From positions 1 through 51,760 of IMG/VR virus record IMGVR_UViG_3300024423_000004: a stretch of DNA of 51,760 nucleotides; one strand, given 5' to 3'. The notes under the pieces are model-generated. The model did no database searches and was not told the origin of the DNA. It saw nothing but the letters and a program-made list of their open reading frames with translations. Both the position numbers and the translations under genes were made by a program. The stretch comes from a virus. Below are positions 30,015 through 51,610 of this stretch, one piece after another. Each line of letters opens with the position of its first letter. Position 1 is the stretch's first letter.

Positions 30015-30671
30015 TTATTCATAAATTAAATTTACTTTAGCATAATCAATATCAGCTGGTCTTTTTTTATTCCAATGTATAATATAAGGCAAGTCTTCAT
30101 TAGTTGTTATTATAACTGGATTACCATTTTTAGAACCGTTGAAACTAGTATAGTGCATAATAGAATTGTAGTTATAAGGCAAACTTTCTTCTTCATATAG
30201 AGGATTATCAAATAATTCAAAATTGTGTTCAAAATTAACTATCATATTTTCTGGATAAATCTCAACATATTCGTCTCTGTCAGGTCGTTGATGTTCATGT
30301 ATAAGACCTAGAACATGACCGAGTTCATGCAAGATTACGCTGAAATATCCCACTTCGATAAAAGTCATTTCGGAGTCTTTGTGTTGTCCGAGTATAGCAT
30401 GTGGTCGATACAAATCATCAATAAGGGGCGCTTTTCCTATTTTACAGATATACTGTTCAATTCCACTTGCCTCTATAAATTCAACTATAGTACCGTCTTC
30501 CCAGATATCCATAGCTTTACGGACAACATCTTGTTCGCTATCTGAAACTTCATCACGAAATTGATAATAAACAATTCCATTCTCCCATTTTTGTATAATA
30601 CTATCATCTTCTTGTTCAAAATTACAGCCAATAAGAAAAAAAATTAAAAATAAAATACTTAATTTTTTCAT
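30015..30671 (-). CDS. Astacin-family metalloprotease, predicted lipoprotein
   Basis: The zinc site is the full astacin signature HELGHVLGLIHEHQRPDRD (residues 115-133: ligands His115, His119, His125; catalytic Glu116), with the Met-turn SIMHY at 170-174. Residues 1-16 form a lipoprotein signal peptide (MKKLSILFLIFFLIGC), so Cys16 would be lipidated and the enzyme held outside the cytoplasmic membrane. There is no propeptide region of normal length. It is the most distal gene of a leftward operon opposite to the structural genes, a typical position for a moron that changes the infected cell's surface or helps release. Confidence 0.85.
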   Translation of the reverse strand: MKKLSILFLIFFLIGCNFEQEDDSIIQKWENGIVYYQFRDEVSDSEQDVVRKAMDIWEDGTIVEFIEASGIEQYICKIGKAPLIDDLYRPHAILGQHKDSEMTFIEVGYFSVILHELGHVLGLIHEHQRPDRDEYVEIYPENMIVNFEHNFELFDNPLYEEESLPYNYNSIMHYTSFNGSKNGNPVIITTNEDLPYIIHWNKKRPADIDYAKVNLIYE

Positions 30672-34231: not shown

Positions 34232-35314
34232 ATGGAAAAAGAAAAAAAAATTATTGATGTGATTGTAGGTTGTCAATTTGGGAGTGAAGCAAAAGGATTA
34301 GTTGCTTCTTATGTTGCTTCTATAGAAAAATATGATTGGCTAATTTCTGTAAATTCTGCACAAGCAGGTCATACAGCTCCTTATTGGAAAGAAGGGGAAA
34401 AAGAACCGGAGATGATAGTAACTAGACAATTGCCTAGTTCATGTATAACGGATTTTGAAGCAAAAATTTTTATTGGTCCAGGTGCTGTTATTAATCCTGA
34501 AGTTTTAGTAGAAGAAATTATTATGTTGGAAGAAAAGGGAATTCCTATTTGTGACAGGCTTTTCATTTCAGAGAATGCTACAATTGTTACAGAAGAAGAT
34601 ATAATAGCAGAATCTGTAAATAATTTAACTAATAGGTTAGGTAGTACAAATGAAGGTATTGGGTCAGCTCTTGCTATGAGGGCAATGAGAAAATCTCTTC
34701 AGATTAAAAATTCTTTTATTGATATTATAAAAAATTTGAAGTCTAAAGGATTAGAAAAATCTTTTACTTTAGTATCTGATTATTTTTCTGTTGATCATAT
34801 TTCAGGGAAGATTTTAATTGAAGGAAGTCAAGGTTATGGTCTTTCTATAATGAGTGGTTATTATCCATTTTGTACAAGTAGAGATACAACAACTGCAGCA
34901 TTTTTATCTTATGCACAATTATCACCTCTTGATGTAAGGGATGTTTATGGAGTCTATAGGACTTATCCCATTAGAGTAGGAGGCAATAGTGGACCAATGC
35001 ATGAAGAGATTGATTGGCCGATAATAGAAGGAAGATCAGGTTATAAAGATTTGGCTGAATTTACTACTGTAACAAAAAGAATGCGCAGAATAGGTGAATG
35101 GGATAACAATTTAGCCAAAAAGGCTACTATTGTAAATGGAGTGACAAAACCGATTCTTTGTTTTGCTAATTATTTAGACAAAAATGTAGAAAATGCATTA
35201 TGTTTGGATGAATTTCCCGAAGAAATATTACAAGAAATTGCAAAAAGAGCAGAATCAATTGGCCAGCCTTGGTTTGCTATTTCAACGAATAAACATGGAA
35301 ATTTTTTAACTTAA
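34232..35314 (+). CDS. purZ: PurZ, N6-succino-2-amino-2'-deoxyadenylate synthase (PurA family)
   Basis: This PurA-family enzyme of 360 aa is much shorter than bacterial adenylosuccinate synthetase (~430). The P-loop region reads VGCQFGSEAKG (residues 12-22): Ser18 replaces the catalytic Asp of the GDEGKG motif, which is characteristic of PurZ. Other family motifs are present: QAGHTAPYW (44-52), EGSQGYG near 200, and TSRDTTTAAF. PurZ joins dGMP and aspartate, with ATP or dATP/GTP energy, to make the precursor of dZMP (2-aminoadenine). Host PurB and kinases would finish dZTP. Strong AAGGAAAG site; first of the replication genes after the leader hairpin. Confidence 0.9.
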   Translation: MEKEKKIIDVIVGCQFGSEAKGLVASYVASIEKYDWLISVNSAQAGHTAPYWKEGEKEPEMIVTRQLPSSCITDFEAKIFIGPGAVINPEVLVEEIIMLEEKGIPICDRLFISENATIVTEEDIIAESVNNLTNRLGSTNEGIGSALAMRAMRKSLQIKNSFIDIIKNLKSKGLEKSFTLVSDYFSVDHISGKILIEGSQGYGLSIMSGYYPFCTSRDTTTAAFLSYAQLSPLDVRDVYGVYRTYPIRVGGNSGPMHEEIDWPIIEGRSGYKDLAEFTTVTKRMRRIGEWDNNLAKKATIVNGVTKPILCFANYLDKNVENALCLDEFPEEILQEIAKRAESIGQPWFAISTNKHGNFLT

Positions 35315-35364: not shown

Positions 35365-36372
35365 ATGTCGTGGATGCCACAAGATAATAAAGGAGACTCA
35401 AAATTGAAGTCTACTTGGGAATATAGGGATGGCATGGAATTTGTAACTATATTACCTAACACAACAAGAGATTTTATCCTTCTTCAAGGAGATAATGATC
35501 CAACAAAAACTTGGAATAGTCCAAAAATTGCTTGGGTACATGAATTTAAAAATCATAAAGGAAGTTTTTCAACTATAATTTGTAATAAATGGAAACAAGC
35601 ATGTCCATGTTGTTATGAAAATGAACGATATAAACAAAAAAATCCTAATTATAGAAATGCTGGTGGAAGATTGCCTTATGGTTTAAGCAAAAAGGCTTTA
35701 ATTCAAGTATATGATTTTCAAGAACAAAGAGTACTTTGGATTTTAGCAGGTAAACAAATTCAAGATGGAATAGAATTTGTCTTTACTAAAGATACTTTTG
35801 ATAATCGTATTTCTATAACTAGAATAGGTGAAAAACTTAATACGAATTATAGAGTAGATATAAATAAAGTTCCAATTACACAAGAAATTCAAGAAGCAAT
35901 CAATCAATCAATGGTATCTTGGGAAGATACAGATATAATGATATATCCTTCAGATCAAGAATTTTATGAAAAGAGTGGGATGAATCCTTATATTTTTTTT
36001 CAAAAGGCATCATATCAAGTAGATGGTATAGATATTAGTAGTTGGGGACCTATTCCTAGTAAAGATCAAGTGAATATAGAACAAACGCAAAGCAATGTTG
36101 TGCAAGAAAATAAAACAACAATTGTAAATTCCGATCATAATATATCAACAACTGTAAATTTACCAATAGATATTAGGGAGGCTTTAGATACTAAATGTCA
36201 ATCTGGTATTTATGTCAATCAATCTTTAGAGGAAATTATTATTCAAACTGGTAAAACTTATTTGATGTTTTTGTCTGCAAAGGGACAAGAAGCGGAATCT
36301 ATACAATCTAAATTATTAATTGATAATTGGGAATTAATTCAATCTTATATTGATAATAAAGCAAGTTTTTAA
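35365..36372 (+). CDS. Single-stranded DNA-binding protein (gp32-like)
   Basis: The N-terminal domain resembles T4 gp32-type SSBs of phages: an aromatic beta core (EFVTILPNTTRDFILLQ) with a metal site made by His in VHEFK and Cys residues in ACPCCYENERY. A C-terminal helical extension (~250-335) follows a polar linker. It would coat single strands for RecA and the primase-helicase encoded just downstream. 335 aa. Called from pattern and neighbours. Confidence 0.68.
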   Translation: MSWMPQDNKGDSKLKSTWEYRDGMEFVTILPNTTRDFILLQGDNDPTKTWNSPKIAWVHEFKNHKGSFSTIICNKWKQACPCCYENERYKQKNPNYRNAGGRLPYGLSKKALIQVYDFQEQRVLWILAGKQIQDGIEFVFTKDTFDNRISITRIGEKLNTNYRVDINKVPITQEIQEAINQSMVSWEDTDIMIYPSDQEFYEKSGMNPYIFFQKASYQVDGIDISSWGPIPSKDQVNIEQTQSNVVQENKTTIVNSDHNISTTVNLPIDIREALDTKCQSGIYVNQSLEEIIIQTGKTYLMFLSAKGQEAESIQSKLLIDNWELIQSYIDNKASF

Positions 36373-36380
36373 GAGGAAAT

Positions 36381-38420
36381 ATGTCGAAAGAAATAGATAA
36401 TCTAAAGAATCTTGCGAAGCAAATAAATAAAGATTTTGGAGGTGGATCACTCATGCATTTGGGTGATTCTCCTAAAATTCTTGAAAATGAGGCAAAGAGG
36501 CAATCTTTTGGTTATAAATTGCTTGATGATGCTTCTGCAGGTGGTCTTTGTTATGGTAAAATTCATGAAATATTTGGCAATGAGGGAGATGGTAAAACTA
36601 CTTTAGCTTTATCTATTTTAGCAGAATGTCAAAGAAATGGAATGCAGGGTTATTATGTAGATGCAGAACATAAATTAAATTTGGAATATGCTAAGACTTT
36701 AGGGGTTGATGTTAGTAAATTATTAATTACACAACCTTCTCATGGAGAACATGCTTTAGATGTTATGAAGGATGTTTTTAATTCAAATTTAGTGAATATA
36801 TGTGTTGTTGATTCAGTGTCTTCTTTAACTCCTCTATCTATGATAAATGGAGAATTTACTGATGCTAATATGGGTGCACATGCAAGACTTATGTCTACAA
36901 TGTGTAGGGTATTAGTACCTATTTTAAATCAGAAGAATATTATTTTAATATTGATTAACCAAATTCGTTATAAATTGGGTGTAATGTTTGGTTGTTTTCA
37001 TTATAATACTCTTGTTAATTTTGCTGATGGTAAAAATATTCCTATTGGAAAAGTTGTAGATGAAAAAATTCAAGGTGATGTTTATTGCTTAAATGAAAAA
37101 ACTAATGAAATTGAAATAAAATCTATAGTAGATTGGCATGATAATGGGAAAATAGAAAATAAAGAAGATTTTATTCATATTCAAACAAATTCAATAGATG
37201 GTGGAAGTAGATTTGGTTTTACATGCACTCCTAATCATAAAATTTTAACTAATAAAGGATGGAAACAAGCAAAAAATATTAATTATGAAGATAAGCTTAT
37301 TTCTAAATATTTAGAAACTATTAATGGTACTTATGGTGATTTTTTAAGGGGAATATTAATTGGAGATAGTCATATATCTATTCGTGATCAAAACACAGGC
37401 TGTTTAAGATTTCAGGAGAATAAACAAGTTGAATATCTTAATTGGAAATTAAAAAAATTAAATCCATTTTTAAAATTTAAAAAAATTGATATTAATAATA
37501 GAGGGTATAGATATATTTCTAAATATACTTTTGAATGGTCAAAAATAAAAAAAATAATTGGTAATCGCAATCCGGAATATATGTTACAAAAATATTCTGA
37601 TTTATCTTTAGCAATTTGGATTATGGATGATGGACATTTTGATCAAAAAGGTGGTCATAGAAGATATAATATTTCTATAAAAAGATTTAAGAATGATGAT
37701 TTAAATTTACAAAATGTTGTAGATTTATTTCAAAAAAATGGATTAGATTGTAATTATAGAATATCAGATGGAAATATTAATTTTTCTACTGAAATGACAG
37801 ATATAATTGCTAAAAGAATTTGTAAATTTGTTCCAATTTGTATGCAATATAAACTTCCTGTAGAATATCATGAGAAATATCAAGAATTTAATTTAAGAAA
37901 TAAACCTATAGAAATAACTGAATTTGTAGAAATTAAGGAGATTCGGGGGGCTTCGAATAAGCAAATAAAAAATAAGCGTAAATTTGATATTTCTGTTCAA
38001 GATAATGAAAATTATATGGTTGGTGGAAAATATAATGGAATTATTGTACATAATTCGCCAGAGACAACTACTGGAGGACAAGCTATAAAATTTCACTCGA
38101 TAATGAGGATGAAGTTAACATCTACCAAATATTCAGACTCAGATAAATTGAAGAGGATGGTAAATGTTAATTTTATAAAACAGCAATCTGGTGGATTACC
38201 CTATACAAAAACGGGTTTACTCCTCAATATAGGAGAAGGTTTTGATAAGGGGTATGATTTAATTGAACATGGTATAAAAAAAGGAATACTTAAATTAAAT
38301 GGTTCTCAAGTAAAGATGGGTGATATTAGTATTGGACAAGGAAAATTAAAAGCTAGTCAAAATCTTCTAGAAGATAAGAAGTTGTTCGATAAATATGAGA
38401 AGTTATTAAAAGGAGTATAA
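36381..38420 (+). CDS. recA: RecA recombinase interrupted by an intein
   Basis: The RecA extein has Walker A FGNEGDGKTT (65-74), VVDSVSSLTP with Asp144, an ILINQIRYKLGVMFG strand and, after the intein, SPETTTGGQAIKFHS, the L2 loop. Removing residues 205-558 leaves a 325-residue RecA, close to normal. The intein begins with Cys205 right after MFG and ends with VHN followed by Ser559 as +1 extein residue. RecA would drive phage recombination and repair. Confidence 0.92.
   Translation: MSKEIDNLKNLAKQINKDFGGGSLMHLGDSPKILENEAKRQSFGYKLLDDASAGGLCYGKIHEIFGNEGDGKTTLALSILAECQRNGMQGYYVDAEHKLNLEYAKTLGVDVSKLLITQPSHGEHALDVMKDVFNSNLVNICVVDSVSSLTPLSMINGEFTDANMGAHARLMSTMCRVLVPILNQKNIILILINQIRYKLGVMFGCFHYNTLVNFADGKNIPIGKVVDEKIQGDVYCLNEKTNEIEIKSIVDWHDNGKIENKEDFIHIQTNSIDGGSRFGFTCTPNHKILTNKGWKQAKNINYEDKLISKYLETINGTYGDFLRGILIGDSHISIRDQNTGCLRFQENKQVEYLNWKLKKLNPFLKFKKIDINNRGYRYISKYTFEWSKIKKIIGNRNPEYMLQKYSDLSLAIWIMDDGHFDQKGGHRRYNISIKRFKNDDLNLQNVVDLFQKNGLDCNYRISDGNINFSTEMTDIIAKRICKFVPICMQYKLPVEYHEKYQEFNLRNKPIEITEFVEIKEIRGASNKQIKNKRKFDISVQDNENYMVGGKYNGIIVHNSPETTTGGQAIKFHSIMRMKLTSTKYSDSDKLKRMVNVNFIKQQSGGLPYTKTGLLLNIGEGFDKGYDLIEHGIKKGILKLNGSQVKMGDISIGQGKLKASQNLLEDKKLFDKYEKLLKGV
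36993..38054 (+). mobile_element. RecA intein with LAGLIDADG homing endonuclease domain
   Basis: The 354-residue intein has N-terminal Cys (CFHYNTLV), block B CTPNHKILT (TxxH), two dodecapeptide motifs (LRGILIGDSHI and LAIWIMDDGHF) of a LAGLIDADG endonuclease, and a C-terminal block GIIVHN with penultimate His and terminal Asn. All splicing residues are present, so it should be active. It is inserted in the L2 DNA-binding loop. Confidence 0.92.
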
Positions 38421-39326: not shown

Positions 39327-39855
39327 TAAAATTGTTGTTTCTTCTTTAACAAGAAAAGTATTTGATCAGATATCATGTCCGCAAAATGTTGATTGGGCTT
39401 GGTGGATAGAACAAAAATTGCAAAAAATGCAAATAAACGGTCTTGTAAAAATGATTCAACAATCAAAAAAAATGGATATGAAATATATTGAAGGATATTT
39501 ACCTAAATTCAAGTGGGCCTTTAGGAAAAATTCAATTAATATTTCTCATTGCGATTGGTTATTTTGTTTTATACAATCTTTAGATGTTGATTTTAATTGG
39601 AATATTTGGGAACAATTAGTACAGATAAAAACAGATGATATGAAAATTTTTCAAGAATCTATGAATATAGCATTTAGTAGAAATAATTCAAATTTGAATT
39701 ACATATTAGCAATTTTTTTTGATAAAAGATATGAATTTTATCAGAAGATAGAAGAATTAAGGAATAATATAACTTCTTTTGAAGAAGAAGAGAAAAAAGA
39801 AATTACAGATAAATCAATACAAAAATGGAATAATTTAAAGGATTTATTATGTTAA
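39319..39855 (+). CDS. Hypothetical protein upstream of primase-helicase (178 aa)
   Basis: A Trp-rich N-terminus (PQNVDWAWWIEQKL) is followed by helices with FKWAFRKNSINISHCDWLF and a charged C-terminal coiled region. Directly before a helicase gene one might expect a helicase loader, but it has no AAA+ motif. It overlaps the primase-helicase gene by 7 nt. Function not assigned. Confidence 0.6.
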   Translation: MNNKIVVSSLTRKVFDQISCPQNVDWAWWIEQKLQKMQINGLVKMIQQSKKMDMKYIEGYLPKFKWAFRKNSINISHCDWLFCFIQSLDVDFNWNIWEQLVQIKTDDMKIFQESMNIAFSRNNSNLNYILAIFFDKRYEFYQKIEELRNNITSFEEEEKKEITDKSIQKWNNLKDLLC

Positions 39856-42284
39856 GACTTTCAAAAGCTACAAGTTTTATTTTAAATGAAGTAAATATTG
39901 TAGAATTTCTAGAATCCTTTGAAGGATTAGAATTTAAAAAGATAGGGAATAACATGAGGGCAATATGTCCCCTGCATGGAGATACTGATCCTTCTTTTAC
40001 TGTTTCTTTAGATAAAAATGTATGGCATTGTTTTGGATGTAAGGGTGGGGGATCTTTAATTTCTTTTGTAGAACAATTTCATTCTTTAAATAGAATTAAA
40101 GCTATTCATTATATTTTTGATCAATTAGAACTTAATGTAAATGATTATGTTGAATATACAGAATCAGAAAATATTCAAAATATTTTGGAATCAGCAACGC
40201 AATATTTTATACAAAAATCAACAAATAAAAAATTTAAAGATTATTTTCAGAAAAAAGAATTTAAAGACTTTAAATATTTAGAACAAGAGAAAATTGGTTA
40301 TTGTGATTCTGAAGCAAATTTACATGCATACTTATTAAGTAAGAATTATTCAAAAGAAGAAATATGGAATAGTAATTTATATGGAACTAAATTTAATAGT
40401 TCAATTGTTTTTCCTATTCGAAATATATATGGAATAATAAGATACTTCCAATGCAGGCAATTAGATAATAAGGATGCAAAATATATTTCAGATAAGGAAG
40501 ATGCTTTATTAGTTGGTGCTCATTCTCTTAAAAAAGATGATTATGTTATTCTTGTAGAAGGATATGCAGATTATTTGGCTTTGAATCATAAAAATTATAA
40601 TGTTTTATGCATGAGGGGTCTAAAGGTAACTCAAGATTTAATAGACTTAATAAAATCTCATGAAATCAATAATGTTTATGTTTGGGTAGATGGAGATATT
40701 GCTGGATTTGATTATATCAAAACTTTGACGTATAATTATGTTGAATTATTTTCTAGTAATCATATGAATGGTTATACAATTTTTGTTGAAAATAGTGATC
40801 CAGATATTTTAGTTAATACTAATATTAATGTAGAATTTTTATTGGAAGGTAGTTTGTTGCTTCCTCTGCATTTTTTAGAAAATAAATATAAAGGGATAAA
40901 TGAAGATGATAAGTATAAATTTATAGATTTTGCTAGGGATTTATGTAAGGGTTATGATTATTTTACTATTAGTCAAATTATCAAATATTTATCAAACTTA
41001 ACGGAAATTGATAAAATTATTATTGAAGATAGGTTTTTATCCCTTAGTAAATCTAAATTTGCAAATTTTGAACTTGAAAAAGATATAATTGCTTCTATAT
41101 TATATGATAATAATTTAATATATCAATATAAAATTGATGAAGAATGGTTTGCATTCAAATCTTCAAGATATTTATTTAAATTAATTCAACTAGAAAAAGT
41201 TAATATTGTTAACATAAAAACTATTGCAGATCAGTGGTGTCATGGATTTATTGATTCATTACCTTCTTATAATTCGAATTTATTAGAGGAAAAATTTAAT
41301 CTATTAAAAGAAATTAGAGATAAAAGGTATTTACATGATATAGGTAAAAAAGTCATGCTCATGAGTGATTCACACGATGAATGTTTATCATATATTAATG
41401 AGTCTTTAATTAATATCTATCAGAATAAAAATGAAAATGTAGAAGATTTCTATGATTCGATGAAATCAGTAATTAATAAATTAGTTGATGGTCACAAGTA
41501 CATAGGCTATGATATAAGTAATAGATTTCCGATAATGAATCAAACATTATTTGGAATAGTTCCAGGTAAATTGATTCTTTTAATGGGTTGTACAGGACAT
41601 GGGAAGACTAATGTAGCTTTGAATTTGGCATCTACTCTTTCATATGATCAATCTTATAAAGGATTGTATTTTTGTGGAGAAATGCAAATAGATGAATTGA
41701 CAAAAAGATTTATTTCAATAAATTCTGGTGTATCGAATACTAAATTAAATACTAATAATTTAGATGATGATGACATGACTAAAATTTTTGATGTTGCTTC
41801 TTCATTTAATAGTGATAAATTAAAATTTCATTCAACTATGAAATTTGATAAAATCATAAATCTTATAAAATATTCTAAAATAAAATATGATATTAATTAT
41901 GTTATTATTGATTATATGCAATTATTAGAACCTTCAAGGTCTATGCCTAGAATGGAAAAAACTTATCAATTAAAAGAAATGACTAGAATTTTAAAAACTA
42001 ATATCTGTCAAGAGTTAGATTTACCAGTTATAGTATTAGGTCAACTGAATGATGATGCTCTAAATGAAAGTATACCCTCTGCTAGAAATTCATCACAGTC
42101 TAAATTAATTCAAACTGATGCAGATATTACAATTGCATTGAGAATGAAGAATAAAAAAGAAAAGGATTTAGAACCAAATGGAGATATTATTTTTCATATT
42201 GATAAGGTCCGATATAATAGAGGGAAGAGGGTTTTACTTTTAGATTTTGATGATAATTCGCTTGTCATGAAAGAATCAATATAA
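39849..42284 (+). CDS. Fused DNA primase-helicase (DnaG-TOPRIM + DnaB-like)
   Basis: Domains in order: a CHC2 zinc domain with CPLHGDTDPSF and WHCFGCKGGG (residues ~40-70); a TOPRIM fold with VEGYADYLAL (~237) and VWVDGDIAG (~282); a DnaB N-like linker; and a DnaB/RecA-type helicase with Walker A MGCTGHGKT (~580), Walker B VIIDYMQLL (~695) and VIVLGQLN. This is the T7 gp4 plan, with primase and 5'-3' helicase in one chain. 811 aa. It would act at the fork with the Pol III alpha encoded downstream. Confidence 0.9.
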   Translation: MLRLSKATSFILNEVNIVEFLESFEGLEFKKIGNNMRAICPLHGDTDPSFTVSLDKNVWHCFGCKGGGSLISFVEQFHSLNRIKAIHYIFDQLELNVNDYVEYTESENIQNILESATQYFIQKSTNKKFKDYFQKKEFKDFKYLEQEKIGYCDSEANLHAYLLSKNYSKEEIWNSNLYGTKFNSSIVFPIRNIYGIIRYFQCRQLDNKDAKYISDKEDALLVGAHSLKKDDYVILVEGYADYLALNHKNYNVLCMRGLKVTQDLIDLIKSHEINNVYVWVDGDIAGFDYIKTLTYNYVELFSSNHMNGYTIFVENSDPDILVNTNINVEFLLEGSLLLPLHFLENKYKGINEDDKYKFIDFARDLCKGYDYFTISQIIKYLSNLTEIDKIIIEDRFLSLSKSKFANFELEKDIIASILYDNNLIYQYKIDEEWFAFKSSRYLFKLIQLEKVNIVNIKTIADQWCHGFIDSLPSYNSNLLEEKFNLLKEIRDKRYLHDIGKKVMLMSDSHDECLSYINESLINIYQNKNENVEDFYDSMKSVINKLVDGHKYIGYDISNRFPIMNQTLFGIVPGKLILLMGCTGHGKTNVALNLASTLSYDQSYKGLYFCGEMQIDELTKRFISINSGVSNTKLNTNNLDDDDMTKIFDVASSFNSDKLKFHSTMKFDKIINLIKYSKIKYDINYVIIDYMQLLEPSRSMPRMEKTYQLKEMTRILKTNICQELDLPVIVLGQLNDDALNESIPSARNSSQSKLIQTDADITIALRMKNKKEKDLEPNGDIIFHIDKVRYNRGKRVLLLDFDDNSLVMKESI

Positions 42285-42293
42285 AGAGGAAAA

Positions 42294-42779
42294 ATGTTAA
42301 AGAAAATAAATAATAAATTGAAAAAAGTCATTCATTCTTGGTTATTTACATATGATTATCATTTTATGATAGAGGAGAATGGAAGATTACCAATTAGAGC
42401 ATATAAAAATGATGCTGGATATGATCTTTTTATTTCGGAATCAATAAAAATAAAATCTAAACAAATGTCTAATATTGCAACGGGTGTTTCTTGTTTGGGG
42501 CATAGACCAGCTTGGATTCTCTTAACTGGAAGATCATCTACATTAATAAATCATGGTTTGATAGTCAATGAGGGTGTAATAGATGCAGATTATACAGGAG
42601 AATTATTTGTAAAAATTTATAATCCAACAGAACATGATGTATTTTTAAATAAGGGAATGAGAGTAGCACAAATAATTGTTATACCTCATACAAGTATAAA
42701 AATGGAAAAAGTAAAAAATCTAAATAATAAAAAGAAGAGTATTAGAGGGTCTAAGGGATTTGGGTCGTCTGGAAAATAA
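42294..42779 (+). CDS. dut: dUTPase (trimeric)
   Basis: All five trimeric-dUTPase motifs are present: NDAGYDLF, TGRSSTLINHG, GVIDADYTGE, RVAQIIVI and RGSKGFGSSGK. It turns dUTP into dUMP and pyrophosphate, keeping uracil out of DNA and giving dUMP for dTMP. The ~35-residue N-terminal extension is basic. 161 aa. Follows the primase-helicase by 9 nt with a GAGGA site. Confidence 0.92.
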   Translation: MLKKINNKLKKVIHSWLFTYDYHFMIEENGRLPIRAYKNDAGYDLFISESIKIKSKQMSNIATGVSCLGHRPAWILLTGRSSTLINHGLIVNEGVIDADYTGELFVKIYNPTEHDVFLNKGMRVAQIIVIPHTSIKMEKVKNLNNKKKSIRGSKGFGSSGK

Positions 42780-42780
42780 C

Positions 42781-43227
42781 ATGTTGAAATACAGATTAAA
42801 TGTACATATAAGAAGTAATAAATTAATAGTAAATAATTATATTTCTTTTATAGAAGAATATTATAAAAAACATAAACGGACTTCAGAAATTCATGTTGAT
42901 TCTTTAATATTAATATATAATCTTACTAAAAATGAAAAAATTTTTAATTGGATTTTAAAAGTTCATAGGGGTCTTTTAATAAAAATTACAAGATTTACAT
43001 ATAATAAATATAAAACTTTCTTATATAAAGAAGATTATAATGAAATGCTTTCCATGGTTATGGGTGAATTTTATAGAAGGATATTATTTTATGAAATTCC
43101 TCCTCGTGCACCTTTTTCTAAATATGTTAAATTATATATACGTAGATGGTTAAATTCATATACAAAATTGATAGTAAAGAAAAATAATCGATTTGTCCTT
43201 GAATGTGATAAAGAGGAAATGCAATGA
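42781..43227 (+). CDS. Sigma region-2-like protein (148 aa)
   Basis: The second half reads like sigma70 region 2: RGLLIKITRFTYNKY, then YKEDYNEMLSMVMGEFYRRI, then FSKYVKLYIRRWLNSYTK (core binding and -10 helices). There is no region 4, as in some minimal phage sigma factors. I use ATG 42781, 1 nt after the dUTPase stop, rather than an upstream TTG. It overlaps the polymerase gene by 4 nt. Probably directs late or middle transcription; alternatively a helical protein of similar pattern. Confidence 0.55.
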   Translation: MLKYRLNVHIRSNKLIVNNYISFIEEYYKKHKRTSEIHVDSLILIYNLTKNEKIFNWILKVHRGLLIKITRFTYNKYKTFLYKEDYNEMLSMVMGEFYRRILFYEIPPRAPFSKYVKLYIRRWLNSYTKLIVKKNNRFVLECDKEEMQ

Positions 43228-46214
43228 TAAATTTACATACAAAATCTGCAGGCGGTAATTTTGATTCTATATTAACTAATTCTGATCTCATATCAGAAGA
43301 TAAAATAATTACTGTTGTAGATTCAACTATGTTTAATGTTGTTTCTTTATACAAAAATTGTAAAGCAGCAAGTAAGAAGTTGGTATTTGGGTTAGATATT
43401 TGTACGGCTTTTGGTAATGTAGAATCATTAATTTCTATGTATGGGAAATTTTATGGTAAATTGACTTTAATTGCTAAAAATTATCAAGGATATCAGAATT
43501 TAGTAAAATTATCTACATATTCTTATTTGAAGGGTTTTTATCAAAAGCCTAGAATAGATTTAGAATTTTTATTAGAAAATAATGAAGGTTTAATTTGTTT
43601 GATTGATTCATTAAATTCTAATCTTGCCATGCATATTGAAAATGATAGTAAATTTGAAATGATGAAAGAATATAAAACTTTAAAGGGTATTTTTAAAGAA
43701 AAGTTACATTGGGTTTATTTTCTGAATGCAGAACCTACTGAAAAAGTAAAAACTTTTATACAAAATAATAATGAAAAAGTAATTGCTTCTAATATAGTAA
43801 AATATCAAAATCCAAATAATTTTGATTATTGGAAATATTTGATGTGTATTAACAACAATATTAATACAGGGGAATTTGATAATAATAATAAATCTTCTTA
43901 TTGTAAAAAAGAATTTAATGATTTTTATTATTGTATATGGTTATCAGAACATGCCATTATGAACTTATTTGATCTACTAGAAGAAGTAGAAGATTATAAT
44001 TTAGATCAAAAAGAATTGAAATTGCCAGATATGGGTATTCCAGATGAGGACTTTATAGAAAATTTATTTCGTAAATTAGAAGAATTTGGTTTAAATACAG
44101 AAAAATATATAGAAAGATTGAGTTATGAATTAGATACTATAATGAAATTTGGATATAAGGATTATTTTCTTTTAGTAAAAGATGTAGTTGATTATGCAAA
44201 TAGAGAATTATCTGGTTATCTTTCTGCAGGTCGAGGTAGTGTAGGTGGATGTTTAATAGCTTATCTTTTAGGAATTACAAGAATAAATCCAGTCAATCCT
44301 AAAGGTTTTGATATGGAAATACCTTTTGATAGATTTTTAAATTCTGGTAGAAAAGTAATGCCGGATATAGATTTGGATTTTTTACCTAGAGATCGTCCTT
44401 TAGTTATTCAATATTTGAAGGATAAATTTGGAAATGATTCTTGTAAAAATATGATGACTAAAGTTACATTTGGTGCACGGTCTTCTATAAGGGAAATTTG
44501 TAGAATATCTGGTAATTTAACATCAGAAATAGAAAGTATAATAAAGTCTTTTCCTTCAGACCAACATCTTAATTTAGATATATTAAAAGATACGGATATT
44601 TATAAGCAAAATGAAGATAATAAAATATTTATGGATATGTATAAAATAGCTGAAAAATTAGAGGGAATGCCACGTTCAATTGGTGTACATGCTTCAGGGA
44701 TCGCATTATCTGCATGTGATATGAAAGATAATGTACCTTTTTTCATTCATAATGGAAGAGAAGTCACCCAATATGATCAAAATTCATTAGATTATATGGG
44801 AGTTATAAAATTAGATATATTAGGTTTAAATGTTTTGCAGATAATGAGTGATTGCTTAGAATTAATTGAGCCTAACATGGACAAATTTGAATGGTTATCT
44901 GAAATATCATTAAATGATGATGGAGTTTTTAAATTTATCAATGATGGATTGATATCTGGAGTTTTTCAATGGGACACTTTTAACTATAAAAAAGTTATTG
45001 AAAATGTAAAACCAAATAGTTTTAAAGAATTAGTTGATCTAAATACATTAGGCAGAAGTGCTGCCTTATTATCAGGTTTAACGGACAAATATATAGCTAG
45101 AAAGAATGGATTAGAGAAAATTGAACCATTACATCCTAATTTGGATAATCTGATGAGTCAGACTTATGAATTACCTTTATATCAAGAACAGATTATGAAG
45201 ATTTTTATTGAATTGGCTGGTTTTAGTTTTTCTGAAGCAGATGATGTAAGGAAAGCAATAGGTAAAAAAATTCCAGAACTTATGAATCAGCAAATGAAAA
45301 AATTTAATGAAGGTTGTATTAAGAATAATATAACAACAAAAGAATCGGCAAAGATATGGTATATTATTGATAAATTTTCTAAATATACTTGGAATTTAGG
45401 TCATGCAATAGCTTATACAAGGATTTGTTATGAAACTGCGTATTTAGCATATCATTATCCAAAGGAATTTTATTGTGCCTGTATTAATAATTCAGGAGAT
45501 AAGAATGAAATTGGTAATTTTATATCTACTCTAAAAAAGAGAAAAATAAAAATAGATAGTTGTCATATAAATGTATCTCAAAAACGATATATTATAAAAG
45601 ATCAAATTGTTTATTCTGGTTTTACTGGATTAAAATTTTTTGGAGAAAAATCAATAGATAATTTTTTGAATATGAGGAGTACTGGATATGATTCTATAGA
45701 AGAATTATTTGAAAAAGTACCCAAAAAAACATTAAATGCAAGGGCAATAAAAGCATTATATTGTGGTGGTGCTTTTGATTCTTTGATAAAAATTGAAGAA
45801 GATTTAGAATTATTAGCAAAAAGGGCAAATCTAACTATAAGGGAATTAAGGTTATTGAATTTAAATCAATATAATATATGTGGTAGAATTACTGTAAATC
45901 CAGTACAAAAAATTGGAATTTTATTTTCTGACCATAAAACAAAATATAATAATTTAATTGATTTAAAAGATAATTTGACTGTTTTTACCATGGCATATAT
46001 AGTTGGATTAAGGGAGATATATACTAAAAATGGAAATAAAATGGCTTTTGGAACTTTAGAAGATCACACTGGTCGATATGAAATTGTTATATTTCCTTCA
46101 GTTTGGAAAAATACAAAAATTAAAATTGGGGATTTATGTGAAACTAAATTAAGATATGATAAAGGAATTATATGTGATTATATAAGGAAATTTGATATAG
46201 AAGAGGTAGAATGA
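43224..46214 (+). CDS. dnaE: DNA polymerase III alpha subunit (C-family, DnaE-like)
   Basis: This is the replicative polymerase. The N-terminal PHP domain is degenerate (NLHTKSAGG for the usual LHxHSxxS). Family C palm motifs are clear: LSAGRGSVGGCLIAYLLG, MPDIDLDF with two catalytic Asp (~390), and VIKLDILGLNVL with the third Asp (~530). Then YQEQIM and HAIAYTRI (fingers), a helix-hairpin region, and an OB domain (MAFGTLEDHTGRYEIV). It lacks its own exonuclease; the DnaQ-like gene at 49110 can supply proofreading. 996 aa, slightly shorter than bacterial DnaE. Confidence 0.92.
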   Translation: MINLHTKSAGGNFDSILTNSDLISEDKIITVVDSTMFNVVSLYKNCKAASKKLVFGLDICTAFGNVESLISMYGKFYGKLTLIAKNYQGYQNLVKLSTYSYLKGFYQKPRIDLEFLLENNEGLICLIDSLNSNLAMHIENDSKFEMMKEYKTLKGIFKEKLHWVYFLNAEPTEKVKTFIQNNNEKVIASNIVKYQNPNNFDYWKYLMCINNNINTGEFDNNNKSSYCKKEFNDFYYCIWLSEHAIMNLFDLLEEVEDYNLDQKELKLPDMGIPDEDFIENLFRKLEEFGLNTEKYIERLSYELDTIMKFGYKDYFLLVKDVVDYANRELSGYLSAGRGSVGGCLIAYLLGITRINPVNPKGFDMEIPFDRFLNSGRKVMPDIDLDFLPRDRPLVIQYLKDKFGNDSCKNMMTKVTFGARSSIREICRISGNLTSEIESIIKSFPSDQHLNLDILKDTDIYKQNEDNKIFMDMYKIAEKLEGMPRSIGVHASGIALSACDMKDNVPFFIHNGREVTQYDQNSLDYMGVIKLDILGLNVLQIMSDCLELIEPNMDKFEWLSEISLNDDGVFKFINDGLISGVFQWDTFNYKKVIENVKPNSFKELVDLNTLGRSAALLSGLTDKYIARKNGLEKIEPLHPNLDNLMSQTYELPLYQEQIMKIFIELAGFSFSEADDVRKAIGKKIPELMNQQMKKFNEGCIKNNITTKESAKIWYIIDKFSKYTWNLGHAIAYTRICYETAYLAYHYPKEFYCACINNSGDKNEIGNFISTLKKRKIKIDSCHINVSQKRYIIKDQIVYSGFTGLKFFGEKSIDNFLNMRSTGYDSIEELFEKVPKKTLNARAIKALYCGGAFDSLIKIEEDLELLAKRANLTIRELRLLNLNQYNICGRITVNPVQKIGILFSDHKTKYNNLIDLKDNLTVFTMAYIVGLREIYTKNGNKMAFGTLEDHTGRYEIVIFPSVWKNTKIKIGDLCETKLRYDKGIICDYIRKFDIEEVE

Positions 46215-46215
46215 T

Positions 46216-47121
46216 ATGTTAGAGCGATTTGTCTGTCCTGATATGAAAGAAATTAATATGAAAGATTGTTTAGAGAAATGCAGATTAAATAAGAGATGTT
46301 TAACAAAACCTACATTAATGGTATTGGCTAGAGTTAGACCTTGGAAAGGTATTCCATCAGTAACGCAATTATTGAATGGAACATATGAATCTTTTTTAAA
46401 GATAAAAGTAGCTTATGCAGAATCACCAGATCAGATGGCTTTTAGATTATATGGTACAGTTACACATGCCAATTTAGAAGAAGTAGAAGTAGATGAATCA
46501 TTGATGATAGAAATTTCTAATGTGGGATCAGATGGAATTTCTGGTACTTCTGATTTGGTAGAAAAGGAAGATAATTGGCATATTTTAACTGATTATAAAA
46601 CATCAGGTTCATTTAAAGTTGCTAAAGCATTAGGGGCATATGAAACATGGGGGGAGTCTAAAGATGAAGTTTATAAACAAAAAACTTATGTAACTTTTGA
46701 TGGAATGAAAGTGGCTAGAGAGAAAGGAAGTCCCAAAATAAAGAAGAAAATTAAATTTGATATAAAAAATCAAGATTGTAAAGATTGGATTTATCAATTA
46801 AATAAATATCGAATTGATCTTGAAGAAAATGGAACAAAGATTGACGAAATAAGAATACAGGCTATTGTTAGAGATGGTGGGACTATGATAGCTAGAAATC
46901 GTGGTTTAGATAGAAATATATATTTGATTCCTATACCTCATATAAAAGATGAAGAAATAAAAAGTTATTTTAAAAAGAAAAAAGAAAATCTTCTTAAAGC
47001 TTTAGAAATGGGGGATTGGAATGAAGAATGTTCTGAAGAAGAGACTTGGAATGGACTTAAATGTGAAAGGTATTGTTCAGTAAGTAAATTCTGTAAATTT
47101 AAGGAAAATATAAATGGATAA
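46216..47121 (+). CDS. RecB/Cas4-type PD-(D/E)XK nuclease with Fe-S cysteines
   Basis: The nuclease core has FRLYGTVTHANLEE (motif I helix), GISGTSDLVE (Asp), and ILTDYKTSG (D-x-K). One Cys cluster is at the N-terminus (CLEKCRLNKRC) and another at the C-terminus (CERYCSVSKFC), as in [4Fe-4S] nucleases of the Cas4/AddB group. It likely works as an exonuclease in replication or recombination with RecA and SSB. 301 aa, overlapping the HNH-like gene by 8 nt. Confidence 0.8.
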   Translation: MLERFVCPDMKEINMKDCLEKCRLNKRCLTKPTLMVLARVRPWKGIPSVTQLLNGTYESFLKIKVAYAESPDQMAFRLYGTVTHANLEEVEVDESLMIEISNVGSDGISGTSDLVEKEDNWHILTDYKTSGSFKVAKALGAYETWGESKDEVYKQKTYVTFDGMKVAREKGSPKIKKKIKFDIKNQDCKDWIYQLNKYRIDLEENGTKIDEIRIQAIVRDGGTMIARNRGLDRNIYLIPIPHIKDEEIKSYFKKKKENLLKALEMGDWNEECSEEETWNGLKCERYCSVSKFCKFKENING

Positions 47122-48130: not shown

Positions 48131-48661
48131 ATGAAAAGAAAAGATAACTATCCAACATTACCACATATAATATTTGGTCTGCTTGAAGAGGGTGGATTTT
48201 TTGTAACTTTACCTTTTAAGGGGATTTCATTAAATCAATATAGAAGGATGCATCATGGTCAAATTAAAAAAGAAAAATCATTATATAAGTCAATTTTAGA
48301 TGTAATTTTGATTTCTTCAATTAAGAAGAATTTTATTGGAGAATTTAATGAAGAAGGAGTAAAATTAAATTCATCACTTTTTAAAAATGAAATTGAAATT
48401 GAGTGGATTTTAAATTTTAAAGAAAAAAATACTCGTGATGTTTCAAATTATACACAAAAAATTGTACTCGATGCTATTGTAAAAACAAACATAATTGAAG
48501 ATGATAATTCTAAATATGTCTTGTCCGATAAAACAGTATTTGGTACTAAACAAATTGATAGTATTACTTGTATATTAATGGGTGAAATTGAAAATCATAA
48601 ATTTTTAAAGTATTTACCTAAAATTAAATATGAATATTTAAAAAAATCCTTGGAGGATTAA
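48131..48661 (+). CDS. RusA-like Holliday junction resolvase
   Basis: The family pattern is present: LPFKGISLNQYRRMHHG near the start, EIEWILNFKEKNTRDVSNYTQ then KIVLDAIVKTNIIEDDNSKYV, where Asp in RDVSNY, LDAI and EDDN are the catalytic acids. RusA resolves four-way junctions, useful before packaging. 176 aa, slightly longer than E. coli RusA (120). Confidence 0.78.
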   Translation: MKRKDNYPTLPHIIFGLLEEGGFFVTLPFKGISLNQYRRMHHGQIKKEKSLYKSILDVILISSIKKNFIGEFNEEGVKLNSSLFKNEIEIEWILNFKEKNTRDVSNYTQKIVLDAIVKTNIIEDDNSKYVLSDKTVFGTKQIDSITCILMGEIENHKFLKYLPKIKYEYLKKSLED

Positions 48662-49087
48662 GTGTTAGATAAAATAGTATATGTAGCAGGTGCCTTGAGG
48701 GGTAATTTTATAAGAAAATGGTTAAATTTTAAAAAGATACATAAAATTTGTAAAAAATTGTGGTCTAACAATATTATCAATTATTCTCCTCATAAAAATT
48801 CAGGGTGGTTTGATAATAAGAAAACAGATGAATTTATGTTAGCATCTAATATTGAATTATTAAAGCGGTGTGATATTTTATTTGTAGTGGATAATTGGAA
48901 AAAAAGTAGTGGCACTATGGGAGAACTCATTGAGGCTATTCGATCTGGTAAAAAAATATATTTTGATATTGATGATTTAATAGAAGACCTTAAATATAGG
49001 AGATTTGATAGATCATTAACAATTATAGAACAAGAAGAATTGTTAATAAAAATAAGGAAAATAAAAAATCATAGAAACATATATTAA
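48662..49087 (+). CDS. Nucleoside 2-deoxyribosyltransferase-like / DUF4406-type protein
   Basis: VYVAGALRGNFIRKWLNFKK (Rossmann-like start), then YSPHKNSGWFDNKKTDEFML, LKRCDILFVVDNWKKSSGTMGELIEAIRSGK place it in the NDT/DNPH1-like superfamily (DUF4406 group). Members cleave or swap bases on deoxynucleosides or deoxynucleoside monophosphates; the Glu in TMGELIEA corresponds to the acidic active-site region. It may adjust the dNTP pool, perhaps with PurZ. Starts GTG at 48661/62 context right after the RusA-like gene; 141 aa. Confidence 0.72.
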   Translation: MLDKIVYVAGALRGNFIRKWLNFKKIHKICKKLWSNNIINYSPHKNSGWFDNKKTDEFMLASNIELLKRCDILFVVDNWKKSSGTMGELIEAIRSGKKIYFDIDDLIEDLKYRRFDRSLTIIEQEELLIKIRKIKNHRNIY

Positions 49088-49109
49088 TAATATGGATAGG
49101 AGTATAGTA

Positions 49110-49733
49110 ATGATTGTTTTTGATTGTGAGACAGTAAGACCTATTTTAAAGAAGAATGAAAAACCAAAAGATCAATATGAATATGCTGAAAGTTGGACAG
49201 ATTATAAGGGCATGGGAATATCTGTTGTGTGTTTTTATAATTATCAAACTGGATGCATATTTGATCTTTTAGAGGATCATATTAAAGAAAAATCTGATGA
49301 ATTTTTATATGCTCAAAATTTAATAAAAGAAAATGAACTTATTGCAGGTTTTAATATAAAAAAATTTGATAATAATTTGATAAGAGAATTTGGAATAAAC
49401 ATTCCAGATATAAAAACTTATGATATATTAGAATTATTTTGGTTAGCAATTGGTTTGGACCCTAAAAATTTTAATCCGAGAACACATGGTGGATATAATT
49501 TAGAAAAATTTTTAAAGATTAATTTTCCTGATGGAGATATTCAAAAGACAATGAATGGAGTAAATGCCCCTTATATGTGGCAAGATGGTAAAAAAGATGA
49601 AGTAGTAGAATATTGTAGAAATGATGTAAAAGTAGAAAAGGCTTTATTTAATAAAATTTTTGAAACTGGTGGTTTGATAAATCCTAAGACTAAAAAATTT
49701 GTAAAAATGCCACTTCCTAGGGCATTTAATTAG
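49110..49733 (+). CDS. DnaQ-like 3'-5' exonuclease (DEDD)
   Basis: The DEDD residues are visible: VFDCET (Asp/Glu, motif I), AGFNIKKFDNNL (Asp, motif II) and YCRNDVKVEKAL (Asp, motif III, Y before it, DEDDy type). This would proofread for the C-family polymerase. ATG 49110 is chosen since AGGAG lies 7 nt before it and motif I follows at once; the upstream ATG at 49092 overlaps that Shine-Dalgarno. 207 aa. Confidence 0.8.
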   Translation: MIVFDCETVRPILKKNEKPKDQYEYAESWTDYKGMGISVVCFYNYQTGCIFDLLEDHIKEKSDEFLYAQNLIKENELIAGFNIKKFDNNLIREFGINIPDIKTYDILELFWLAIGLDPKNFNPRTHGGYNLEKFLKINFPDGDIQKTMNGVNAPYMWQDGKKDEVVEYCRNDVKVEKALFNKIFETGGLINPKTKKFVKMPLPRAFN

Positions 49734-50268: not shown

Positions 50269-50487
50269 ATGAAAATCGATAAAATGATAAAAGAATATGA
50301 AAAATATAAGGAAGATATACCAGAAAAAAAAGTAAAAAAGGATTTAAGTAGTGATATATTTGCCGAAATAGATATAGAAGAGAAATCTTTGTTTATTAGA
50401 AATAAACATGGCAGTTATACAATTATTAGCCTAGAAGAAAGTAAAAAGTTATATGAGTTTTTAAAAGAATATTTCGGAGAAGAATAA
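50269..50487 (+). CDS. Small hypothetical protein (72 aa)
   Basis: A charged protein with a Lys/Glu helix (IKEYEKYKEDIPEKKVKKD) and a compact SLFIRNKHGSYTIISLEESKKLYEFL end that looks like a beta hairpin plus helix. Overlaps the diphosphohydrolase-like gene by one base. No family recognised. Confidence 0.6.
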   Translation: MKIDKMIKEYEKYKEDIPEKKVKKDLSSDIFAEIDIEEKSLFIRNKHGSYTIISLEESKKLYEFLKEYFGEE

Positions 50488-50849
50488 TGGAAAAAGAAGG
50501 GATAAAACACGATAAAGGGAAAACACGTTGGTCATTACTCCCTTTTGAAATTATAGAAGAAATAGTTAAAGTTATGGAGTTTGGTGCTGATACTTATGGA
50601 ATTGATAATTGGAAACAATTAAAAAATTTTAATGACAGATTTTTTTCAGCTTGTATTAGGCATCTTGTAAAATGGAAGCAAGGTAATAAAATAGATGATG
50701 AAACTAATTTAAGTCATCTTGCACATGCAGCAACGTGTATTATTTTTTTACTCTGGAAACAAAGTCAAGTTTCTGAAGAAAAAATATTGGATACATTTCA
50801 AACAATACCAAAAGAGATGATATTTCAAGAAGATGATGGAGAATATTAA
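50487..50849 (+). CDS. dATP/dGTP diphosphohydrolase-like protein (DUF5664)
   Basis: The motif order is that of the dATP/dGTP diphosphohydrolase N-terminal family (formerly DUF5664): KHDKGKTRWSLLPFEII, VMEFGADTYGIDNWKQL, FSACIRHLVKWKQG, then LSHLAHAATCIIFLLW. Members are MazG/all-alpha NTP pyrophosphatase relatives. In Z-genome phages such an enzyme converts dGTP to dGMP (PurZ substrate), and may remove dATP. The family also occurs in phages without PurZ, so a link is inference. 120 aa. Confidence 0.78.
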   Translation: MEKEGIKHDKGKTRWSLLPFEIIEEIVKVMEFGADTYGIDNWKQLKNFNDRFFSACIRHLVKWKQGNKIDDETNLSHLAHAATCIIFLLWKQSQVSEEKILDTFQTIPKEMIFQEDDGEY

Positions 50850-51610
50850 TGAAAAAAGAAGAAAAAGAAGCATTATTCTGTATGAAACTTGCTCAAATTG
50901 CATATCATGGAGAATATGGTAAGAATGATATTAATAAAAAAATTCATAATTATAAAGAATATCGTATAAAAAATACTGAATTTTTTACATGTAAAGATTC
51001 AAAAAATGATTTTTATATAGTTTTTCAAGGTTCTAATAATTTAAAAGATTGGATCGCTAATTTAAAATTTTTAAGTGAGACTGATTCACAATTGGATATG
51101 GAAAGTTTAGAAAGAATTGGTACTGATTTTAAATTTCATAAAGGACATTTAAAACAATGGCATGATGTAGAAGATTTTATCTTTAAAAAATTAATTGAAA
51201 ATGGATTTATTCAAAATATTAATAAGATTTACTTTACAGGACATAGTTTAGGTGGAAGTTTAGCTGAAATAGGTTCTTGTATTACTGCTAAATGTTTCCC
51301 TTTTTTAAAAGAAAAATTAGTAGTTAGGTCTTTTGGTGCTAATAGAAATATGGGTTGGAAAACAAAACATTGGTTTAATAAAAATGTAATGGATTGTTAT
51401 CGTTATGTTAATGGTGATGATATTGTGCCTAAGATGCCACCTAATTTAATTGATCGAATTGGATTATGTCACCCAGCTACAAAAAGAAAGATAGGCAGAA
51501 AGGAACCTTGGTGGAAATTTCTTTTACCTATTCATAATATTAAACATGACATTGAAGACCATTATCCACAGGCATATATTAAATCATTAGAAAATGAGGT
51601 TATTAAATGA
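50849..51610 (+). CDS. Class 3 lipase-like alpha/beta hydrolase
   Basis: Class 3 lipase features: YIVFQGSNNLKDWIANL (oxyanion/lid region), the nucleophile elbow FTGHSLGGSLAE with Ser133, Asp in YVNGDDIVPKMP (~190), and His238 in EDHYPQAY. No signal peptide is present, so it acts in the cytoplasm or after lysis. It could attack host membranes to help release, or esters of the surface. Starts with the last base of the previous stop (TAATG). 253 aa. Confidence 0.82.
   Translation: MKKEEKEALFCMKLAQIAYHGEYGKNDINKKIHNYKEYRIKNTEFFTCKDSKNDFYIVFQGSNNLKDWIANLKFLSETDSQLDMESLERIGTDFKFHKGHLKQWHDVEDFIFKKLIENGFIQNINKIYFTGHSLGGSLAEIGSCITAKCFPFLKEKLVVRSFGANRNMGWKTKHWFNKNVMDCYRYVNGDDIVPKMPPNLIDRIGLCHPATKRKIGRKEPWWKFLLPIHNIKHDIEDHYPQAYIKSLENEVIK

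Follow-up and report, generated by a model that had tools for sequence, protein, structure and literature searches.

Phage genomes in which 2-aminoadenine (Z) takes the place of adenine represent one of the few natural changes of the genetic alphabet known. Two PolA lineages that prefer Z, DpoZ-1 and DpoZ-2, have already been described. The S-2L PurZ residues S23, T273 and Q308 are unique to PurZ and contact the substrate (PMC8342488), and in PurZ0 phages DutZ, DmtZ and DUF5664 replace DatZ and MazZ (Poubanne et al. 2026, PMC12884076). Here, these systems are compared with the record of an uncultured virus, 51,760 bases long with 30% G+C, the whole of which is called the window. Judging from its sequence, Z is likely to stand in place of adenine in this phage genome.

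Terminase and portal genes lie at the left end of the window, tail-type and structural genes extend to about 29.7 kb, and a short leftward block comes next. The latter includes a gene for an astacin-family metalloprotease with a lipoprotein-like N-terminus (30015-30671, - strand). A rightward replication block starts at 33.4 kb, and purZ is situated inside this block or operon, in agreement with the position beside replication genes given by the first-pass annotation. The gene adjoining purZ (35365..36372, +) codes for a conserved 335-aa protein that, from its position, is probably a ssDNA-binding protein; its identity to the versions in the two closest relatives is 42-48%. It is followed on the + strand by genes for a RecA recombinase split by a LAGLIDADG intein (36381..38420) and a primase-helicase combining a DnaG zinc finger/toprim with DnaB (39849..42284); in the two closest phages RecA measures about 320-331 aa and is free of this intein. 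Further downstream are an exonuclease gene (46216..47121, +; PHROG 2139) and a gene for a RusA-like Holliday junction resolvase (48131..48661, +). A class 3 lipase-like gene occupies the right end (50849-51610), and no counterpart of it was found in a near-complete relative.

The purZ ORF (34232..35314, +) starts with ATG, codes for 360 aa with no internal stops and has a good ribosome-binding site, AAGGAAAG, a short distance upstream. The product carries the motif G17-S18-E19-A20-K21-G22, so that the PurA-family protein of 360 aa with GSEAKG (Ser18) reported by the first-pass annotation is confirmed as an intact ORF. The presence of a PurA-fold protein with this motif at this locus is far beyond chance, and Pfam Adenylsucc_synt matches it at 6.7e-45. 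The top NCBIfam model is PurZ NF038379 (4e-73), with all PurA models lower; the score of 246 bits lies under the 300-bit cut-off of this model, as expected for a divergent clade. PHROG 1211 (PurZ) matches at 2.7e-70. An AlphaFold model of the product (pLDDT 95.3) ranked 7vf6, 'PurZ0', first among PDB entries and S-2L PurZ (7odx) fourth, with two Pyrococcus PurA structures between them. P0001, used as the sole query sequence against IMG/VR, gave no matches, and alignments were required to reach relatives. Models, tree and residues together lead us to predict, with high confidence in its identity as PurZ, a succino-2-amino-deoxyadenylate synthase acting on dGMP and Asp.

A tree against PurA had been proposed at the outset as a check of this identity, and the placement inside PurA that would have told against it did not come about. 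In our maximum-likelihood tree of 81 rows, rooted on four PurA sequences, the Ser/Gly family, with the window protein in it, was split from PurA at 100/99, and chromosomal homologues also fell on the PurZ side. The purA of GenBank 'Acinetobacter phage MD-2021a' resembles chromosomal PurA and was employed as outgroup; the PurZ-like candidates of megaphage record LR756501 and fecal record MT837463 turned out to be ordinary Asp-type PurA. Capture of a host-type PurA as an auxiliary metabolic gene boosting AMP synthesis would be compatible with the shared fold and Pfam family, but it is extremely improbable given this split, the loss of the catalytic Asp and the scores of PurA models below that of the PurZ model. 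Within the PurZ side, the window protein forms a clade (100/100) with those of two other viruses, L022 (59% identical) and L023 (53%). This clade lies outside PurZ0 (Wayne, Ghobes and Spocter) and outside the S-2L/phiVC8 clade, and its union with the latter, two archaeal sequences and a further clade of viruses (the second clade below) has support of only 90/76. The tree assigns the window protein to a new PurZ clade placed weakly beside PurZ sensu stricto; it belongs neither to PurZ sensu stricto, defined as the S-2L/phiVC8 clade in company with DatZ and MazZ, nor to the Wayne/Ghobes clade that defines PurZ0. As characterised PurZ and PurZ0 bracket the family, use of dGMP is favoured.

All eight residues that separate PurZ from PurA are present in the window protein (S18, E127, S138, R243, I247, S253, W262 and T278), S18 standing where PurA has the catalytic Asp13, as in PurZ in the broad sense, the Asp-to-Ser branch of the PurA family. 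In the alignment, S23, T273 and Q308 of S-2L correspond to S18, T278 and N313. The last position serves in recognition of the nucleotide base and is Asn in PurZ of the phiVC8 type, as against Asp in PurA, in PurZ0 and in those cellular homologues that were sampled. Since N313 is as in the phiVC8 type, and since the structures of phiVC8 PurZ and S-2L PurZ were solved with ATP and dATP, respectively, a donor of the ATP type is likely. The window protein also has Gln44 (QAGH) where the NAGH motif carries an almost invariant Asn, a feature common to L022, L023 and several further virus and archaeal homologues.

The Asp-to-Ser swap and the 360-aa length had been put forward as marks of PurZ. Both are indeed present in the window, but both also occur in chromosomal homologues. 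Pattern and tblastn scans recovered at least 569 relatives in IMG/VR and at least 439 in GTDB genomes. Among the matches listed, the motif could be read in 172 homologues (165 with Ser, 4 with Gly and 3 with Asp), and about 70 of the 165 come from bacterial or archaeal genome records; the scan patterns being biased toward Ser, these counts show that Ser is widespread and do not give its frequency. Because virus and chromosomal homologues by the hundred have Ser, this residue is not diagnostic of Z phages, and in the sequences compared its combination with a length of about 350 aa is not specific to them either. The argument from motif and length is thus necessary but not sufficient, and Z phages cannot be called from the Asp-to-Ser motif alone.

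This distribution allows a different reading, in which the window protein would be a cellular-type PurA paralogue with Ser that makes another product, for example a ribonucleotide or a compound of the free nucleotide pool, in a phage with an ordinary adenine genome. The chromosomal homologues fall in two large clades with GSEGKG and most of the PurZ-like residues, including Ser and TTVT/TTTT; in some of them a kinase-like domain is fused on or purB-like genes are located nearby, and Ser in itself is no proof of Z DNA. We nevertheless consider this reading unlikely: in the tree the window clade is not inside the cellular clades, N313 replaces the Asp of the cellular forms, a dUTPase of the DutZ clade and a DUF5664 protein accompany purZ inside the replication operon, and DatZ is added in sister cassettes.

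Some of the cellular loci deserve mention in their own right. Two chromosomal Ser-type PurZ-like proteins (L113:9416-11053 and L115:9419-11038) have an N-terminal P-loop kinase-like region; in both records a similar ORF of about 210 aa comes after the gene, and in L113 a macro-domain-like gene precedes it. The arrangement looks like an unstudied cellular system. In a Lokiarchaeota record (L103:9995-14114), a PurZ-like gene is found near deoxynucleoside-kinase-like and PurB-like genes, a set that could serve the production of Z-type nucleotides in a cell.

Genes for a dUTPase, an NDT-family protein and a DUF5664 protein are all present in the window, and no match to DatZ (PF12917) or DUF550/MazZ (PF04447) was detected there. 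The dUTPase (42294..42779, +), which has a GRSST motif, finds its best matches, among 940 dUTPase-bearing phage records, in Arthrobacter and Micrococcus phages of the PurZ0 type. A tree of 57 dUTPases placed every one of the 36 PurZ-linked proteins, that of the window included, in one clade (98), apart from 21 controls (5 from other phages and 16 cellular enzymes). The clade takes in DutZ of Wayne and Ghobes, proven hydrolases of dATP and dGTP; RSS stands in place of RSG in 36/36 of its PurZ-linked members, and the window protein has six of its six signature residues. By sequence it is a dUTPase of the DutZ type, grouped apart from ordinary dUTPases and predicted to be a dATP/dGTP (and dUTP) diphosphatase. 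The DUF5664/dGTP_diPhyd_N gene (50487..50849, +), a homologue of dATP/dGTP pyrophosphohydrolases, was seen only in the window among the close relatives tested and is not taken as a defining part; the near-complete relative G002, where the exonuclease and terminase genes adjoin, yielded no such gene. The NDT/DUF4406-family protein (48662..49087, +), of the nucleoside deoxyribosyltransferase superfamily, was weighed as a DmtZ and is not clearly one: of the catalytic triad and Asp12 looked for, Tyr7 and Glu88 align, identity is 16-21%, Asp12 has no clear match and the best phage matches are in non-Z phages. Unlike the window clade, phages of the second clade with PurZ and DnaE carry a DatZ-family (YfbR-like) gene, in 5/5 of those tested (G028, G042, G064, G065 and G066), which ties the purZ-dut-dnaE cassette to Z metabolism. 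The strongest evidence for a Z pathway, dutZ and DUF5664, and the most unusual feature of the window, Pol III alpha in place of PolA, are absent from the first-pass annotation.

Among 51 PurZ-bearing records, PolA was found in 31, Pol III alpha in four (the window, L023, L061 and L094) and both in none. Later scans added six records with PurZ and DnaE (L207, L354, L351, L352, L359 and L365), L022 shows the beginning of the same dnaE, and the purZ...dut-dnaE cassette was seen again in about ten more virus contigs. No PolA (PF00476) was found in 11 PurZ+DnaE records, namely the window and 10 cassette relatives; the window, having no family A polymerase, is outside the DpoZ group. In all 11 the dUTPase gene precedes dnaE, mostly immediately; about 0.8 kb separates them in L359, and in the window clade one small ORF, conserved in the three closest phages (42760..43227, + in the window), lies between them. 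Of 128 DnaE loci, just one that lacks PurZ was seen to have any dUTPase of this sort close by. Our literature search, which covered open-access publications, found no report of PurZ combined with Pol III or DnaE.

The window DnaE (43224..46214, +), a candidate Z-DNA replicase, gave no matches in a single-sequence search of IMG/VR. The PurZ-linked DnaEs are monophyletic (98 in a quick tree and 100/99 in a careful one), with identities among them down to 26-31%. The catalytic Asp381, Asp383 and Asp531 of the palm are retained in the window protein, and its PHP motif, like that of L194, is degenerate. Trp723 stands four residues before the steric-gate His727 and aligns with Phe756 of Escherichia coli Pol III alpha, itself four before the steric-gate His760; Gly is found where the E. 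coli enzyme has Ser759, a position at which substitutions affect selectivity for base and sugar (PMC8485763). Position 723 is Trp in all readable PurZ-linked DnaEs and Phe in the other readable locus records (120/120, a count in which some contigs were entered twice). Contigs fetched later by PurZ alone retain Trp, which constitutes a small prospective test. This Trp may also have been inherited without function from the shared ancestor of one clade. Another phage DnaE (L316:1398-4958) was seen to have an intein-like insert immediately before the motif of the steric-gate helix.

Pol III alpha as Z replicase, the new part of our interpretation, is plausible from these sequences, and we infer that with the PurZ-linked DnaEs a third lineage of polymerases would have been recruited to Z-DNA. 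The fuller proposal of a dedicated C-family (Pol III alpha) lineage, recruited independently of DpoZ-1, DpoZ-2 and the S-2L PrimPol and marked by the Phe-to-Trp change of the fingers helix in a conserved purZ...dutZ-dnaE cassette, is evenly poised between holding and failing. A serious competitor, to which we grant a little short of an even chance, is that dZTP is made but Z incorporation is partial or involves no choice by the polymerase: DnaE would be an ordinary replicase tolerating A and Z, with the pools setting Z content, as proposed for the S-2L PrimPol. That enzyme accepts A as well as Z (PMC8065100), and the window DnaE has the usual catalytic residues; the exclusive O-helix Trp and the monophyly of the PurZ-linked DnaEs suggest, but do not prove, specialisation. 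If a C-family replicase does copy Z-DNA, the polymerase problem has been solved once more, altered-alphabet DNA gains a new copying enzyme and the equivalent of F756W offers a readily testable one-residue hypothesis.

The pathway that we propose would begin with PurZ, which would convert aspartate and dGMP, probably with ATP or dATP, into N6-succino-2-amino-dAMP, host PurB and kinases then completing dZTP. The DutZ-type dUTPase and the DUF5664 enzyme would break down dATP, so that the competitor is removed, and dGTP, as a source of dGMP. The phage Pol III alpha, together with a separate proofreading subunit, the DnaQ-like 3'-5' exonuclease (49092..49733, +), would copy the genome with Z replacing A. 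Gene identity, phylogeny, diagnostic residues and conserved co-occurrence were observed directly; each reaction is assigned by analogy with characterised homologues, and that DnaE would prefer or tolerate dZTP and that Z is present in virion DNA we only infer. The explanation as a whole, in which purZ, the pool enzymes and a DnaE of its own give the virus a genome with Z for A, is in our judgement quite probable. The original call of PurZ and of a probable Z pathway is thus borne out by the tree, the residues, the DutZ-type neighbour, DUF5664 and the DatZ of sister phages.

Compared with PurZ of phiVC8 and S-2L, the window protein shares the fold, the catalytic Ser, the TTVT loop, an Asn or Gln for base recognition (here N313) and the surroundings of replication genes. 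It differs in its identity of about 30-33%, its separate clade, GSEAKG for GSTGKG and QAGH for NAGH, and the window differs in having neither DatZ nor MazZ/DUF550 and in having DnaE for a PolA DpoZ or PrimPol. The PurZ0 phages (Arthrobacter Wayne and Gordonia Ghobes) resemble the window in their DutZ-clade dUTPase, DUF5664, NDT-family gene, lack of DatZ and GSEAKG, whereas the window lies outside the PurZ0 clade and has N313 for Asp, an NDT gene that is not clearly DmtZ and DnaE for DpoZ-1. With E. coli Pol III alpha, finally, the window DnaE has in common the Asp triad of the palm and a fingers helix with the steric-gate His, and it is set apart by Trp for Phe756, Gly for Ser759 and the degenerate PHP motif.
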